Of a DNA stretch of 33,066 nucleotides, positions 16,883-27,278 are shown in pieces; position 1 is the first letter of the stretch; every line of letters starts with the position of its first letter. The stretch comes from a bacterium (lineage in GTDB: Bacteria > Zixibacteria > MSB-5A5 > WJJR01), in NCBI GenBank assembly GCA_021813505.1, contig JAKAKI010000090.1:1-33066 (forward strand). The letters are read 5' to 3'. Both the position numbers and the translations under genes were made by a program. The notes under the pieces are model-generated. The model saw nothing but the letters and a program-made list of their open reading frames with translations, ran no database searches and was not told the origin of the DNA.

Positions 16883-17860
16883 ATGGCCAAATTCCTCACC
16901 CAGGAAGAAATCGACGCCCTGCTGTCTACCGTGGGAAGCACGACGGTCGATCCCGATGCCGGTTCGCGGGTGAACCAGCGCAGTGCCGCCGTTTACGACT
17001 TCAAGCACCCGAACCGGATCTCGAAAGACCAGGTCCGCACTCTCGAGAATATCCACGACAATTTTGCGGGGCACCTCGGCTCCGCCCTGTCCGGAATCCT
17101 CCGGGCGGTCGTTGACGTCGATCTGGTCAGCGTCGATCAGATCACCTATTCCGAATTCTTCATGTCGCTCGCTTCGCCCTCGTGCACATACACGTTTTCA
17201 ATGAAGCCGCTCGAGGGCCTGTGTGTCGCCGACATCAGCCCGGCGCTCGCCTTCGGTTTCGTCGACCGCATGTTCGGGGGACGTGGCAAATCGATGGATG
17301 CCGACCGGGAACTGACCGGCATCGAGCTCAGCGTCGTCGACAAGATCGTCAATCGCGCGTGGCGCGAATTGGCGCTTGCGTGGAACCGCGTCGCCGAGGT
17401 CGAAGTCGTCAGCGCGGGATTCGAGACCACACCGCAATTCATCCAGATCGTTCCCCCGGGGGAAACTGTTCTGGTGACGACCCTCCAGTTGAATGTCCTG
17501 GAGACCTCCGGCATTCTGAAGTTGTGCTACCCCTACATGACGCTGGAGCCGATCATCACCAAACTGCTCGGCCAGAACTGGACCGACTCGGCTCGGGCCA
17601 CTGCCAGCGACAGCGACCGTGTTTCGCTCCACGATAACCTGCTGGAAGTGGAAACCAGTGCGGTCGCGCTGCTTGCCGAAACGCAAATCAGTGTGCGCGA
17701 CTTTCTGAACATCCGCGCCGGTGACGTGCTTCTCACCGACACCAAATCGGTTGAACCCTCGCTGATCAGGATCGCCGGAGTTGGAAAGTTTCTGGCCCGT
17801 CCCGGTCTTCGTGGCCGCCACCGGGCGGTTGAAATACTCGCTGTGGAAACGGAAAAGTAG
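16883..17860 (+). CDS. fliM: Flagellar motor switch protein FliM
   Basis: C-ring protein that binds phospho-CheY and switches rotation. The N-terminal CheY-binding peptide is clear (FLTQEEIDALLSTV, about residues 4-17). The middle domain includes SGILRAVVDVDLVSVDQITY and the GGRGK loop (about 133-137). The C-terminal SpoA-type domain starts around LLAETQISVRDFLNI. At 325 aa it has the usual length. The intact CheY peptide implies that a chemotaxis system exists elsewhere in the genome. It starts 4 bp after fliL. Confidence 0.96.
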   Translation: MAKFLTQEEIDALLSTVGSTTVDPDAGSRVNQRSAAVYDFKHPNRISKDQVRTLENIHDNFAGHLGSALSGILRAVVDVDLVSVDQITYSEFFMSLASPSCTYTFSMKPLEGLCVADISPALAFGFVDRMFGGRGKSMDADRELTGIELSVVDKIVNRAWRELALAWNRVAEVEVVSAGFETTPQFIQIVPPGETVLVTTLQLNVLETSGILKLCYPYMTLEPIITKLLGQNWTDSARATASDSDRVSLHDNLLEVETSAVALLAETQISVRDFLNIRAGDVLLTDTKSVEPSLIRIAGVGKFLARPGLRGRHRAVEILAVETEK

Positions 17861-21197: not shown

Positions 21198-22307
21198 ATG
21201 GCAGAAGAGTCCTACCAGGAAAAAACCGAACAGGCGACCCCACGCCGCCGTGAAGAGGCGCGCAAGAAGGGGCAGGTCGCGCGTTCGATGGAGTTGAACT
21301 CCTTCGCCATTCTCTTCTTTGGTGTCCTGATTCTGCTCTTTGCCGGCCCCACGATGGTTCGCGAGATGGCGCAGCTCACACGCGAACTGCTGACCAACGT
21401 GACCACCATTGCCGGAGGCGTCGAGAACTACAACCGGCTGCTGACTCACCTCAGCCTTCGCTGTCTGGTGATTCTGGCGCCGGTATTCGTCGCCCTGATC
21501 TGCGTGGGACTATTAATCAACGTCGCTCAAGTTGGATTCAGCGCCTCCGCCGAGGTTCTGCAACCAAAGTTCGACAAACTCAATATCGTCAATGGTCTGC
21601 AACGCCTGATCTCCCGGCGATCGCTAATCGAGCTGTTCCGTGACCTTCTGAAGCTGGTCATCATCGGCTGGGTTGCGTGGTACGCCGTCCGCGTGGAATT
21701 GGATCGCCTGATCGTTCTCACTGACGCCGAACCCGCTGGAATTCTGACGATCACGGCCTGGGCGCTTTTCCGTGTCTCAATCAAGGTCGTCCTCGCGCTC
21801 CTGCTTCTGGCGCTCTTTGACTACGCCTTCCAGCGCTGGGAATACGAACGCTCGATCCGCATGACCAAGCAGGAATTGAAGGAAGAATACAAACTGTACG
21901 AAGGCTCGCCACAGATGAAGTCCCGCATCCGCCAGGTCCAGCGCGAGCTGTCACGGATGCGCATGTCTAAGGAAATCCCCAAGGCGGACGTGGTCGTGAC
22001 CAACCCGACTTCGCTCGCGGTTGCGCTGAAATACGATTCCGAAACCATGAGCGCCCCGACCGTCGTCGCCAAGGGCGCCCGTCTGATCGCGGATCGGATT
22101 AAAGAACTCGCACGCGACGCCGGAGTTCCCATCGTCGAGAACAAACCGCTGGCGCGTGCCCTGTACGCGTCGGTGGAAATCGGCGCCGTGGTTCCGGCGG
22201 AACTCTACAAGGCTACAGCCGAGGTGCTCGCTTACGTCTACCGCCTGCGCGGCCAGACGGCGCCGGGCGCCACGGCTGAAGTCGCCACCGAAGGGCAGGC
22301 CACATGA
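21198..22307 (+). CDS. flhB: Flagellar export switch protein FlhB
   Basis: Export gate protein whose cytoplasmic domain controls the switch from hook to filament substrates. The N-terminus EKTEQATPRRREEARKKGQV is canonical. Four TM segments follow, then the linker QELKEEYKLYEGSPQMKSRI. The self-cleavage site, normally Asn-Pro-Thr-His, reads NPTS at residues 269-272. Asn and Pro, between which cleavage occurs, are intact, but the histidine is replaced by serine. The KGARLIADRIKELARDAGVP and ENKPLARALY motifs follow. At 369 aa it has normal length. The stop overlaps the flhA start (ATGA). Confidence 0.96.
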   Translation: MAEESYQEKTEQATPRRREEARKKGQVARSMELNSFAILFFGVLILLFAGPTMVREMAQLTRELLTNVTTIAGGVENYNRLLTHLSLRCLVILAPVFVALICVGLLINVAQVGFSASAEVLQPKFDKLNIVNGLQRLISRRSLIELFRDLLKLVIIGWVAWYAVRVELDRLIVLTDAEPAGILTITAWALFRVSIKVVLALLLLALFDYAFQRWEYERSIRMTKQELKEEYKLYEGSPQMKSRIRQVQRELSRMRMSKEIPKADVVVTNPTSLAVALKYDSETMSAPTVVAKGARLIADRIKELARDAGVPIVENKPLARALYASVEIGAVVPAELYKATAEVLAYVYRLRGQTAPGATAEVATEGQAT

Positions 22308-24427
22308 GCGCCAAACGCCGCTCACGCAGTTCCTTCGGGATGAATGCCGACATCATGCTCGCTGTCGGGGTGATCGGAATAATCGGTGTTTTGGTGATTC
22401 CGATCCCCCCGCAACTCCTCGACTTCCTGCTCGCCTTCAATATCGCGTTCTCGCTCGTCGTGCTGCTGGCGTCTCTCTACGTCACGGCACCGCTTGAGCT
22501 GTCGGTGTTTCCCGGCATGCTGTTGATCGTGACCTTGTTTCGCTTGTCGCTCAACGTGGCATCGACCCGTCTGATTCTCGCCGATGGTTACGCCGGTGAC
22601 GTCATCAGCTCATTCGGCGGTTTCGTCGTTCGCGGCAACTACGTGGTCGGTTTCATCATATTCCTGATTCTCGTTGTCATTCAATTCGTGGTCATCACCA
22701 AGGGCGCCGGCCGCATTTCGGAAGTCGCGGCCCGGTTCACCTTGGACGCCATGCCCGGCAAGCAGATGGCGATTGACGCCGATCTCAACGCCGGCCTGAT
22801 CGGTGATGATGATGCCCGCAAACGCCGCCAGACAATCGCACGGGAGGCGGACTTCTACGGCGCCATGGACGGCGCCAGCAAATTCGTGCGCGGCGATGCG
22901 GTGGCGGGCATCATCATCACCGTCATCAACGTCATCGGCGGCTTGATCATCGGCGTGCTCCAGCGCGGCATGAGCCTTTCGGATGCAGCGCGGGCGTACA
23001 CGCTGTTGTCCGTCGGCGATGGCCTGGTCACCCAGGTTCCGGCGCTTCTCGTGTCGGTCTCCTCCGGTATCCTGGTCACCCGCGCCGCCGCGGAGTCCGA
23101 TCTCGGTTCTGATCTGCGCAATCAAATCGCCAGCAAGCCGCGCGCATTGGGCGTGGCCGCCGCGATGCTCATTCTCTTCGGCTTCGTGCCCGGTATGCCG
23201 ACGATTCCGTTCCTCGGCCTGGGCCTCATGGTTGGCGCAGGCGCGCTGGCTGCCGACCGCTCGCAGAAAAAAATCAAGGCCGCCACCGAAGTGGAAAAGC
23301 AGGTGGCGCCGCCTCCCGTCCAGAAGCCGGAAGAATTTCTGCGCCTCGACATTCTCGAAGTGGAAATCGGCTACGGCCTGATTCCGATCGTCGACACGAA
23401 CGCCGGCGGCGATCTCCTCGACCGCGTGGCCGTGATCCGCCGCCAGATGGCGCAGGAAATGGGATTCGTTGTCCCGCCCGTACGCATCCGCGACAACGTT
23501 TCGCTCGATCCTTCGACGTACGTGATCAAGCTGCGAGGTGTCAAAGTTGCCGGCGGCGAGCTGATGATGAACTACGTGCTCGCGATCAACCCCGGCGGGC
23601 TCAATGAAGACGAACTTGGCGGAATCCCCGGAATGGAACCGGCATTTGGACTGTCGGCCCGCTGGATTGCACCGGCCGCCAGGGAGATGGCGGAACTAAA
23701 GGGATTCACGGTCGTTGAGCCGGCCTCCGTACTCGCCACCCACCTGACCGAAATCATCCGTGCGCACGCCGCCGAAATCCTGTCGCGCCAGGACGTCCAG
23801 ACTTTGCTTGATCATCTCAAGCACGATTATCCCGTCTTGGTCGACGAAGCGCTCTCGAAAGTTGGTTCCGCCGGCCCGATTCAACGTGTGCTGCAAAACC
23901 TGCTGCGGGAACGCATCCCCGTCAAAGATCTGGTCACGATCCTCGAGATGATCGCCGACTATTGGGCACTGACGAAAGACACCGATGTCCTGTCTGAGTA
24001 CGCACGCCGCTCGCTGAAACGCTCGATCACGCAGACTTACTCGGATCAGTCGGCCACCGTTACAGCGTTCTCGCTCGACCCGCTTGTCGAGAAAGTGCTC
24101 TCTGAGTCGGTCAATCAGTCGCCCGCGGGATTCCATCTTGCCGTTCCGCCTGATGTCGCCGAGGAGATTCTCTCGTCGACCGGTGCAGCCGTGGATCGCA
24201 TGGTCGCCCAGGGCCAGGCGGCGATTGCCCTCGTGGCGCCGAACCTGCGGCTGCTCTTCCGCCGCTTTGTCGAGCCGCGCTATCCGTCATTGGTCGTGCT
24301 CTCATACAACGACCTCTTACCGAACACCAAGATCGAAATCGTGCACGTGGTGCGCCTGGCATCGCCCGGCGTGAAACTGATGTCGCCGGCCGCCACAAGC
24401 GGACGGATGACTGCGAACGCTGAGTAG
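22304..24427 (+). CDS. flhA: Flagellar export gate protein FlhA
   Basis: The largest export gate component; its cytoplasmic ring docks chaperone-substrate complexes. The N-terminal membrane half (about residues 15-320) has LSVFPGMLLIVTLFRLSLNV, TKGAGRISEVAARFTLDAMP with GKQMAID after it, and ISKPRALG-like SKPRALGVAAAMLILFGFVP. The cytoplasmic domain (about 345-690) has NPGGLNEDELGGIPGMEPAF and LDHLKHDYPVLVDEAL. At 707 aa it has normal length. It overlaps flhB by 4 nt and is followed 14 bp later by flhF. Confidence 0.97.
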   Translation: MSAKRRSRSSFGMNADIMLAVGVIGIIGVLVIPIPPQLLDFLLAFNIAFSLVVLLASLYVTAPLELSVFPGMLLIVTLFRLSLNVASTRLILADGYAGDVISSFGGFVVRGNYVVGFIIFLILVVIQFVVITKGAGRISEVAARFTLDAMPGKQMAIDADLNAGLIGDDDARKRRQTIAREADFYGAMDGASKFVRGDAVAGIIITVINVIGGLIIGVLQRGMSLSDAARAYTLLSVGDGLVTQVPALLVSVSSGILVTRAAAESDLGSDLRNQIASKPRALGVAAAMLILFGFVPGMPTIPFLGLGLMVGAGALAADRSQKKIKAATEVEKQVAPPPVQKPEEFLRLDILEVEIGYGLIPIVDTNAGGDLLDRVAVIRRQMAQEMGFVVPPVRIRDNVSLDPSTYVIKLRGVKVAGGELMMNYVLAINPGGLNEDELGGIPGMEPAFGLSARWIAPAAREMAELKGFTVVEPASVLATHLTEIIRAHAAEILSRQDVQTLLDHLKHDYPVLVDEALSKVGSAGPIQRVLQNLLRERIPVKDLVTILEMIADYWALTKDTDVLSEYARRSLKRSITQTYSDQSATVTAFSLDPLVEKVLSESVNQSPAGFHLAVPPDVAEEILSSTGAAVDRMVAQGQAAIALVAPNLRLLFRRFVEPRYPSLVVLSYNDLLPNTKIEIVHVVRLASPGVKLMSPAATSGRMTANAE

Positions 24428-24441
24428 TTGGGGACATTAAC

Positions 24442-25635
24442 ATGATCGTCAAAACCTTCACAGGCCCATCCGTTCGCGAGACTCTGCAGATGGTGCGTGA
24501 TGCCTTCGGCGCCGACGCGGTGATTCTCGAGACGCGCATGGATGAAGGCGGCCCGCGCCAGTTGGGGATCTCCCGGGGGGGAGTGGTCATCACCGCGGCG
24601 GCCGAGCCACAGCGCCCGCCGCAGCCGGCGGCCGATGGTCCGCGCTCGCTGTATCTCAAGGGATCTCTGGGTGATAGTCCGGCGCCAATTGCGACGGCTG
24701 CCCCCGCCATTGAGATCGATCCACCGCAGATTGTCGAAGAGGCGATTCCCGCAGCCACACGACCGGCGCCCGCGCCGATGCCACAGCAGTTCGATGCGGT
24801 GCTGAGCGAACTCCAGGCCATCAGCCGGGCATTTCATTCATCCTCAGCGAACGGAAACGGGAACGGCAACGAAGCGCTGTGGGATACGATGCGCCACTGG
24901 CTTTCCGGCCAGCCTTCACTAGCTGCCGGCATCATTGAAACCTTTGTGACCCACCTGATCGATTCGCTTCCGCCTTACAGTTCGTTTTTGAATGCCCCTT
25001 CACGCAGCCAGAGCGTGCTCGTGGTCGGGGCTCGCGGCGCGGGGAAATCGACTTTCGCATTCAAAGCGCTCGCCGCGCGCTGGCAGGAAATTCAGCGGAA
25101 GCCGTCGCTCGTGATCCTGAGCGTCTCCCCGGAACACGGCCACGAACGGATGCACGCACTCAGCATCGGCTGCGGCGTTGATTGCTCCGCGTTCGCGCTG
25201 GGTCAGACCCGCCGGATTCGCCTCGATTCCGATTCGAGTGACAACGTCATCGCCGAGTACGTCGGCGGACGGGTTAACGACGACTGTGAAGCCCACGCGC
25301 GTTTGATCCGCCGCGGATTGAAACCCGACGTGGTCGTCCTCGTGCTCAATGCGACGGTCGCGCCGTCCATCTGGCGCCAGCAGTTGAACCGATTCGCAAT
25401 CCTTGCACCGACTCATCTGGCATTCACGCATTGGGACGAAGCCCAGCCGTGGTGGGATGCCATCATGTTTTCCGGACAGAGCCGCCTGCCACTGGCCTAC
25501 CGGGTGAGTGGCTTCGAGGCGTTTGGCGAAATCGACGCTTTCACACCTTCAGAACTCCAGGCCGGCATCTCCGATTACGTGACCCATTCGCTCGGTTCCT
25601 CTGACGGCGACACCGTCCGGAAGGAGGGGAAATGA
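24442..25635 (+). CDS. flhF: Divergent FlhF (SRP-type GTPase-like)
   Basis: FlhF normally recruits flagellar assembly to its cell site with GTP-dependent dimerisation. The start MIVKTFTGPSVRETLQMVRD and the AFGADAVILETR stretch are typical of the family, and the gene lies between flhA and flhG as usual. A proline-rich linker precedes an NG-like region. Walker A is kept as GARGAGKST (residues 196-204). The DTYR and DTAGR motifs that contact GTP in SRP GTPases are not found, and the expected TKxD reads THWD at residues 329-332. The fold seems kept while GTP binding or hydrolysis is doubtful. Length (397 aa) is normal. The stop overlaps flhG by 4 nt. Confidence 0.85.
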   Translation: MIVKTFTGPSVRETLQMVRDAFGADAVILETRMDEGGPRQLGISRGGVVITAAAEPQRPPQPAADGPRSLYLKGSLGDSPAPIATAAPAIEIDPPQIVEEAIPAATRPAPAPMPQQFDAVLSELQAISRAFHSSSANGNGNGNEALWDTMRHWLSGQPSLAAGIIETFVTHLIDSLPPYSSFLNAPSRSQSVLVVGARGAGKSTFAFKALAARWQEIQRKPSLVILSVSPEHGHERMHALSIGCGVDCSAFALGQTRRIRLDSDSSDNVIAEYVGGRVNDDCEAHARLIRRGLKPDVVVLVLNATVAPSIWRQQLNRFAILAPTHLAFTHWDEAQPWWDAIMFSGQSRLPLAYRVSGFEAFGEIDAFTPSELQAGISDYVTHSLGSSDGDTVRKEGK

Positions 25636-26420
25636 TCGCCCATAGCGCTCAAACTTCCTCCGATCTCCGGATTACGGGAATTGCTGCCGCCAAAGGTGGC
25701 GTCGGACAAAGCACGATCAGTCTGGATTGGGCGCGCGCGCTCGCGTCCCGTGGGCAGCACACTCTGCTCCTGGAAATCGCCGGTGGCGATCTGGCCTGGA
25801 TGGCCGGCGTGTCGCCGAGGCAGTTCACCGAAGATGCAGCCCGTGGAACCGTTTCCCCAGTTGCCGCCGCGGTCGAGGCCGGATCGAATCTCGACGTGCT
25901 GGCTGCCGGCAACGAGTGGGCCGTTCACGGATGCGATGATCCAGCGAAGCTCACGAAGCTCATGCAGGCACTTCAATCCGGAATCTGGGCGGAATGCGTC
26001 ATCGATCTCGGGCACACCGACCCGCGGCGAGCGCGCGCTGCCTGGGAGTCATGCGCGATTCTCGCGGTGGTAATCGATGACGACTTGGGATGCGTGTCGC
26101 GCACCTATGCGCTGATGCGGCATCTGCTCGACTTTGGCTGGGGTGACCGCCTGGCCCTGGTCTTCAATCACCTGACCGACCCAGGGCACGTGGAATCCCT
26201 CCGCCAGCGCTTTGACCAGATTACGAACGCGTTTTTAGGGCGCACGTTTCCGCTGATCGGCGTGGTCCCGGATGGACCCGAATCGCGCCGTTCAGCCGCG
26301 GTCGCCAAATGGGTGCCGGGCGGTGCCGAGTTGGCGGCGTCTCAGACGGATTCGCTGCTTCTGGCGCACAATCAACCTCGAATGATCGACGCGGCCATTC
26401 TTGCCGATATCAAAATATAA
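25632..26420 (+). CDS. flhG: Divergent FlhG/MinD-like ATPase
   Basis: FlhG (FleN, YlxH) is a MinD-type ATPase that limits flagellar number with FlhF. In the 262-aa product the deviant Walker A reads KGGVGQST (residues 21-28). The signature lysine K21 is present, but the P-loop lysine is glutamine at residue 26 (codon CAA). The usual acidic DAD motif after the P-loop is replaced by LLEIAGGDLAW, and the switch II region reads VIDLGHTD. It lacks an obvious C-terminal membrane helix. Position and overlap with flhF support the assignment. The product may be a non-hydrolysing relative. Confidence 0.83.
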   Translation: MIAHSAQTSSDLRITGIAAAKGGVGQSTISLDWARALASRGQHTLLLEIAGGDLAWMAGVSPRQFTEDAARGTVSPVAAAVEAGSNLDVLAAGNEWAVHGCDDPAKLTKLMQALQSGIWAECVIDLGHTDPRRARAAWESCAILAVVIDDDLGCVSRTYALMRHLLDFGWGDRLALVFNHLTDPGHVESLRQRFDQITNAFLGRTFPLIGVVPDGPESRRSAAVAKWVPGGAELAASQTDSLLLAHNQPRMIDAAILADIKI

Positions 26421-26435
26421 CCTGGAGCTGATTAC

Positions 26436-27278
26436 ATGCCGACAGTAACCACTACCGGCCGCGCCACTGCGGCAACGACGAACAGCGCAACTGCCACCCG
26501 CAAACGCGGAACCACGCCGATTCAGGTTCAGCGCCAATGGGAAGCCTACCGGCACTCCGGCGATCCCAACGTGCGCCAGCAGTTGCTCAATCACTACCTG
26601 CCGCTGGTGCGCAACGTCGCCGGCCGCATGGCCCTTGGGTTTCCCAAGTCGGTGGAGGTGTCGGACCTGGTATCGACAGGCGTCATCGGACTGATCGAAG
26701 CGCTCAAGAACTTCGACCCCGAACGCGGCGTCAAGTTCGAGACTTTCGCGGTGCCGCGTATTCGCGGCGCCATTTTGGACGAACTGCGTTCGCTCGACTG
26801 GGTGCCGCGTTCGACCCGCGCGAAGGCCCGCGAGATTGACCGTTCGACCGTCCGCCTCGAAAACCGCCTCGGCCGTGTTCCGACCAGGGGAGAGCTCGCG
26901 GATGATCTGAAGATCTCCATGGAAGATCTGGCCGCGGCCCTTGAGGATGTTTCCGGCACCACACTTCTGTCGCTGGACGAACTCGTCTATCGCGAAGAAG
27001 ACAACCGCCAGGTGCCGCGTGTCGAGACACTCGAGGCGCCGCGCGGTGACACCGTGCTCGGCGACATTGAACGCCAGGAGCTGCGTGCCTTCTTGATCAA
27101 CGCGGTGTCCGATCTGACCGAACAGGAAAAACTCGTGATTGCTTTGTACTACTACGAAGAACTGACACTCAGGGAAATCGGCGAAGTGATGAACATCTCC
27201 GAATCACGTGTCTCGCAGATCCACACCAAGTCAGTGGGGCGGCTGCGGCACATGGTGCGGGAGCGCTTCGGACTCTGA
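26436..27278 (+). CDS. fliA: Flagellar sigma factor FliA (sigma28)
   Basis: Sigma70-family factor for late flagellar genes. After a disordered Thr/Ala-rich start (about 1-28), region 2 has LPLVRNVAGRMALGFPK and DLVSTGVIGLIEALKNFDP. The FliA/WhiG signature follows: FETFAVPRIRGAILDELRS then LDWVPRSTR. Region 3 has RLGRVPTRGELADDL. Region 4 has LTEQEKLVIALYYYEELTL and the HTH EIGEVMNISESRVSQIHTKS. At 280 aa it is a little longer than most because of the start. GGAG lies 8 nt before ATG 26436. A matching promoter exists upstream of motA. Confidence 0.96.
   Translation: MPTVTTTGRATAATTNSATATRKRGTTPIQVQRQWEAYRHSGDPNVRQQLLNHYLPLVRNVAGRMALGFPKSVEVSDLVSTGVIGLIEALKNFDPERGVKFETFAVPRIRGAILDELRSLDWVPRSTRAKAREIDRSTVRLENRLGRVPTRGELADDLKISMEDLAAALEDVSGTTLLSLDELVYREEDNRQVPRVETLEAPRGDTVLGDIERQELRAFLINAVSDLTEQEKLVIALYYYEELTLREIGEVMNISESRVSQIHTKSVGRLRHMVRERFGL

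Follow-up and report, generated by a model that had tools for sequence, protein, structure and literature searches.

Glutamine in place of the P-loop lysine in FlhG of a zixibacterial family

Introduction

FlhG (also FleN or YlxH), a MinD-like flagellar number ATPase, and FlhF, an SRP-type GTPase, are usually described as a nucleotide-driven switch, and a DQAxxLR helix of FlhG is reported to stimulate FlhF in other bacteria (PMC12826062). In V. alginolyticus, the D60A variant of FlhG is reported to have no ATPase activity and to be nearly functional, whereas Walker A mutants lose function and the cells hyperflagellate; binding of FliM/FliY by FlhG of Geobacillus and Shewanella is described as independent of nucleotide (PMC7226244). 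Related ATPases with an altered P-loop have been reported outside the flagellar system. Specifically, P1 ParA K122Q, a laboratory mutant of a plasmid partition protein, binds ATP without hydrolyzing it and behaves as a super-repressor (PMC2950902), and BcsQ is a natural ParA/MinD-family member that reads RGGVGTT and has lost the catalytic lysine (PMC9178275).

Our literature search, which covered few subscription papers, found no description of a natural FlhG that lacks the P-loop lysine. Such a protein under selection would offer a natural experiment that separates the FlhG functions dependent on ATP from the others, and relatives that have flagellar genes but no flhG indicate that the entire gene can be lost. 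Here we analyze an FlhG of this kind in a 33,066-nucleotide stretch of zixibacterial DNA, hereafter the window.

Results

FlhG of the window carries glutamine at the P-loop lysine position

The window belongs to a genome of 3.89 Mb in 95 contigs (G000, contig C19), and its nearest named relative is the groundwater MAG Candidatus Zixiibacteriota JACRMA010000039.1. It contains a flagellar run of motA, motB, rod, hook, C-ring and export genes to flhB, flhA, flhF, flhG and fliA (Table 1). With flagellins encoded elsewhere in G000, the flagellar gene set around flhG looks complete as judged from the sequence. An Acido-Lenti-1 RNA (Rfam RF01687, 43.7 bits) lies at 2476-2520, just upstream of the rod genes. 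A search for a relevance of the finding to phages gave no match.

Table 1. Coordinates of the flagellar features discussed, in window numbering.
Feature	Position	Strand	Remarks
fliM, C-ring protein, possible FlhG partner	16883..17860	+	N-terminal EIDALL motif intact
flhA, export gate	22304..24427	+	FHIPEP; TIGR01398 above cut-off
flhF, 397 aa, degenerate GTPase domain	24442..25635	+	TIGR03499 46 bits vs cut-off 174
FlhF G1 P-loop GARGAGKS, lysine kept	25027..25050	+	coordinates calculated
FlhF G3 region DNVIAEYVGGRVNDD, G3 aspartate missing	25240..25284	+	
flhG, 262 aa, Gln replacing P-loop lysine	25632..26420	+	between flhF and fliA; profile A1 match E 2e-26
FlhG deviant Walker A motif KGGVGQST, residues 21-28	25692..25715	+	codon 26 = CAA at 25707-25709
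FlhG E48-I49-A50 instead of D-x-D acidic motif	25773..25781	+	
Sigma-28-like -10 element of fliA, GCCGATAT, within flhG 3' end	26403..26410	+	-35 poor in window
fliA, sigma-28 factor	26436..27278	+	TIGR02479 above cut-off

The flhG gene overlaps flhF by ATGA, and its place in the order flhA-flhF-flhG-fliA fits FlhG. The protein scores 93.6 bits against profile A1 (20 FlhGs of the phylum), while its Pfam matches fall below the curated cut-offs (ParA, 26.7 vs 27.1 bits; CbiA, 23.9 vs 25.4 bits) and its best NCBIfam match, BcsQ, lies far below the cut-off. The initial annotation had read KGGVGQST with the P-loop lysine replaced by glutamine (Q26, codon CAA), and this reading stands, with glutamine present in relatives as well. 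The signature lysine K21, the glycines, S27, D125 and N179 are all retained, the Walker B aspartate D125 being invariant across alignment A2. The acidic motif after the P-loop had also been described as lost, and indeed the consensus V-D-A-D is changed to L-E-I-A (E48, A50), although the second acidic residue is likewise missing in lysine-keeping FlhGs of family f17 and this trait therefore extends beyond the Gln lineage. The pattern DQA..L, a mark of the N-terminal DQAxxLR helix, occurs in none of the 91 FlhGs of the phylum, that of the window included. At the other end of the protein, the hydrophobic moment of the C-terminal stretch is 0.31-0.33 in the Gln FlhGs (best value in the window, 0.33), compared with a 5th percentile of 0.37 in the set; this rough measure weakly hints that membrane cycling may have been lost in the Gln FlhGs. 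AlphaFold2, run on FlhG with two sequences as input, returned a mean pLDDT of 36.

Gln is confined to one family among the FlhGs of the phylum

Our sample comprised 132 genomes, covering phylum and class alike, in 105 of which FlhA is present. The flhA region was collected from 100 genomes besides the window (101 loci). Since the flhG profile also picked up FlhF sequences, FlhG was defined at each locus as the profile match that is not FlhF. FlhG was found in this way at 91 of the 101 loci including the window, one of them masked, and the 90 readable P-loops comprise 85 with lysine, three with glutamine, one with arginine (G125) and one with threonine (G106). Seven additional P-loops all have lysine, which is thus present in 92 of 97 overall. 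Family f1 yielded no FlhGs other than the three Gln proteins. The orthologue comparison proposed in the initial annotation revealed no normal lysine in this clade: codon 26 is CAA in the window and in a genome of the same genus (G007), and CAG in G008, a genome of another genus of the family, whose motif reads KGGIGQSA.

The other odd FlhG P-loops read SPLYGKSI (L083, G124), AGGSGRTA (L084, G125), TGGVGKTT (L085, G128) and KGGVGTSS (L095, G106). Two of these, G124 and G128, keep the P-loop lysine and have lost the signature lysine.

Purifying selection acts on the Gln FlhG

In the one available pair, G000 and G007, flhG differs by 33 synonymous and 7 non-synonymous changes, without any internal stop or indel between the two genes. 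The resulting dN/dS of 0.067 compares with 0.067-0.323 in 13 control pairs with intact FlhG, and 7 non-synonymous changes out of 40 give a binomial p of about 1e-14 against neutrality. The P-loop/switch segment holds one non-synonymous and nine synonymous changes (dN/dS 0.034). Four of the seven amino-acid changes fall in the first 12 residues, start codon included, whereas residues 15-222 hold 3 non-synonymous vs 30 synonymous changes. This low dN/dS indicates purifying selection on the Gln form, and the substitution pattern shows for this genus that Gln FlhG, altered P-loop segment included, is maintained by selection. Over the longer distance to G008, FlhG identity is 38%, compared with a median of 42% in 857 pairs of similar FlhA divergence, of which 119 are lower; in the P-loop segment it is 62% vs a median of 65% in the comparison pairs. 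This ordinary divergence at a given FlhA divergence rules out fast decay of the Gln lineage.

flhG has been lost in relatives of the Gln lineage

The FlhA tree unites f1 with f2 (support 1.0), and within this group f1 is itself a clade (1.0). G006, a member of f1, groups with G000/G007 apart from G008 in the FlhA tree (0.883) and in a tree built from three proteins of 13 genomes (83.6/78), and is thus placed with moderate support inside the Gln clade. However, G006 has no flhG between flhF and fliA, and neither have G001 and G002 of f2, though flhF is present in all three. Rod genes and flagellins are kept in these genomes, as is flhA in G006. The checked profile matches elsewhere in the three genomes are ParA- or Mrp-like, bar two adjacent KGGTGKT proteins of G002. 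Because G006 keeps flhA and flagellins without flhG, one relative at least can do without the Gln FlhG. The simplest reading of the tree is that glutamine arose in the ancestor of f1, was then retained, and that the gene was later lost in G006. Three further members of f1 (G003-G005) gave no FlhA match. Replacement by a second FlhG in G000 was rejected on the strength of the matches checked, C71 being ParA-like and C50 Mrp-like; C47 is a further, weak match.

FlhF has lost the G3 aspartate in the same order

FlhF of the window is degenerate, as had been claimed: the G3 aspartate is missing. However, most FlhFs of the phylum lack the G4 lysine, with TKxD, and only 10 of 98 rows match the G4 pattern (a count that includes truncated rows). 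The N-terminal B-domain is strongly conserved, and in the G000-G007 comparison dN/dS is 0.090 in B, 0.046 in N and 0.041 in the first part of G, but 0.458 in the linker. In G007, flhF (L041) carries a frameshifting 65-bp deletion, aligned to window 25239-25303, which puts it into the flhG frame and creates a single 643-aa open frame. This frame may represent a recent break, an in-frame fusion or an assembly fault. Because the part past the deletion still has a dN/dS of 0.056 in the old frame, the break, if it is one, should be recent or an assembly fault.

The co-occurrence of Q26 with the FlhF losses, also put forward in the initial annotation, was counted at 94 loci with a readable FlhF G3 region, after setting aside two rows with FlhG, among them the one with the deletion of G007, and two others that are truncated or masked. 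The G3 aspartate is lost at five loci, namely all five readable loci of the f1/f2 order and nowhere else; two of these have Gln FlhG and three have no FlhG. At the remaining 89 loci, where the aspartate is kept, FlhG has lysine (84), arginine (1) or threonine (1), or is absent (3). The match is thus perfect inside the f1/f2 clade, but it breaks down elsewhere, FlhF G3 being intact despite loss of the FlhG lysine (G106, G125) or absence of FlhG (G040-G042). As one clade amounts to one event, and the motif losses are uncoupled in the rest of the phylum, the proposal that FlhF and FlhG evolved together is not supported. In family f19, a lysine-to-arginine change in FlhF G1 (G128-G131, 4/4) goes with a kept FlhG P-loop lysine.

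A sigma-28-like promoter of fliA lies inside flhG

A near-invariant GCCGATATAA[AG]GGAATAG lies within the 3' end of flhG, immediately ahead of fliA. Within it, GCCGATA lies at most 60 bases from the stop codon in 60 of 90 flhG ends, against an expectation of 0.015 derived from the remainder of those loci, and 57 of these 60 have an [AT]AA element about 15 bases upstream; we take the two elements to match the sigma-28 consensus. This arrangement suggests that fliA may activate itself from inside flhG. FlhG has an apparent C-terminal peptide ADI[KR]E because the promoter-like DNA lies there. As a protein binding motif this peptide was rejected: this DNA falls in another reading frame in G074 (L062), is interrupted by a stop in G044 and G045 (L111, L112), and is still present in G040-G042, where flhG is missing. 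These last three genomes belong to genus g26 (family f7; G041, G040 and G042, at L052, L108 and L109), in which flhG has been lost, flhF looks normal and the fliA promoter is kept.

Discussion

Our preferred reading, which we consider somewhat better than an even bet, is that the Gln form is a lineage-fixed, hydrolysis-incompetent FlhG kept by selection as an adaptor in flagellar assembly. CAA at codon 26 is a single base from AAA, but a sequencing or assembly error has a negligible probability and is in effect excluded by glutamine in two more genomes, encoded by two different codons (CAA in G007, CAG in G008). A stronger competitor, though one we hold to be unlikely, is that the gene is on its way out: the ATPase would have been lost under relaxed selection, glutamine being the fossil of an early step that was followed by loss of the gene, as in G006 and f2. 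The absence of flhG from G006, G001 and G002, the frameshifting deletion in G007 flhF, and the lack of an FlhA match in f1 members G003-G005 all fit such a decay, but the flhG dN/dS of 0.067 (0.034 in the P-loop segment) without internal stop or indel and the ordinary divergence from G008 argue against it, and the deleted flhF itself, still at 0.056 in its old frame, points to a recent break or an assembly fault.

FlhG might still be an active ATPase in which another residue substitutes for the P-loop lysine and the switch cycles; K21 and the remaining pocket are conserved, yet lysine and acidic motif are both changed and P1 ParA K122Q is reported to be hydrolysis-deficient (PMC2950902), so we consider it improbable. 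Even less credible, and in our view highly improbable, is that the flhG frame is kept mainly for the fliA promoter at its 3' end while the protein is idle. The element GCCGATAT, the low synonymous divergence of the last 40 codons (2 synonymous changes between G000 and G007, dS 0.068) and the retention of the element in G040-G042, which lack flhG, would all be expected of a selected promoter, but they leave unexplained the amino-acid constraint across the core, residues 15-222, away from it.

The window FlhG is altered at both the P-loop lysine and the catalytic acidic pair, and on the preferred adaptor reading it is therefore very probably incapable of ATP hydrolysis. It might hold the C-ring proteins FliM/FliN or FlhF, for example, without any hydrolysis. 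Such an adaptor could take two forms: ATP-bound and locked, as in the Lys-to-Gln form of P1 ParA, or indifferent to nucleotide. The conserved pocket favors a bound nucleotide, and the weak C-terminal amphipathic stretch favors a loss of membrane cycling. The nucleotide-independent FliM/FliY binding and the nearly functional D60A variant are precedents from other FlhGs, whereas the loss of function in V. alginolyticus Walker A mutants (PMC7226244) counts against an adaptor, as does the absence of flhG from G006.

Compared with FlhG/FleN/YlxH in general, the window protein shares gene order, length, signature lysine, Walker B aspartate and the profile match, and is distinct in its P-loop glutamine, its changed acidic pair, its lack of the DQAxxLR helix and its weak C-terminal amphipathic stretch. 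P1 ParA K122Q likewise has glutamine for lysine in its deviant Walker A motif, but in the window the change has been fixed by evolution, in a flagellar protein whose acidic motif is altered too. FlhF of f1/f2 resembles other SRP-type FlhF in its conserved B-domain and its constraint between G000 and G007, and differs in the lost G3 aspartate; the G4 TKxD is not kept in most of the phylum.

A maintained pair of scaffolds, as envisaged in the initial annotation, is only partly borne out. The constraint on FlhF and FlhG alike in the G000-G007 comparison is what retained, non-hydrolyzing proteins would show, but FlhG is absent in G006, G001 and G002, so not every member that carries flagellar genes needs a joint scaffold. 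We put forward only tentatively, as a possible but rather doubtful extension, that FlhF and FlhG of the f1/f2 order could both be nucleotide-independent scaffolds (a pseudo-GTPase and a pseudo-ATPase of the SIMIBI class), still selected and still guiding flagellar assembly. If so, assembly would dispense with the hydrolysis cycle that is regarded as the core of the switch. Additionally, with no DQAxxLR pattern and FlhF mostly without TKxD, the FlhF/FlhG switch may depart from the textbook version throughout the phylum.

BcsQ, in turn, acts in cellulose biosynthesis and has its signature lysine changed as well, whereas the window FlhG is flagellar and keeps this lysine. MinD-like proteins of 401-403 aa with the motif KGGLGVTT, also without the P-loop lysine, are encoded in f1 members G003 (L140), G005 (L141) and G004 (L142), and resemble CpaE/TadZ.
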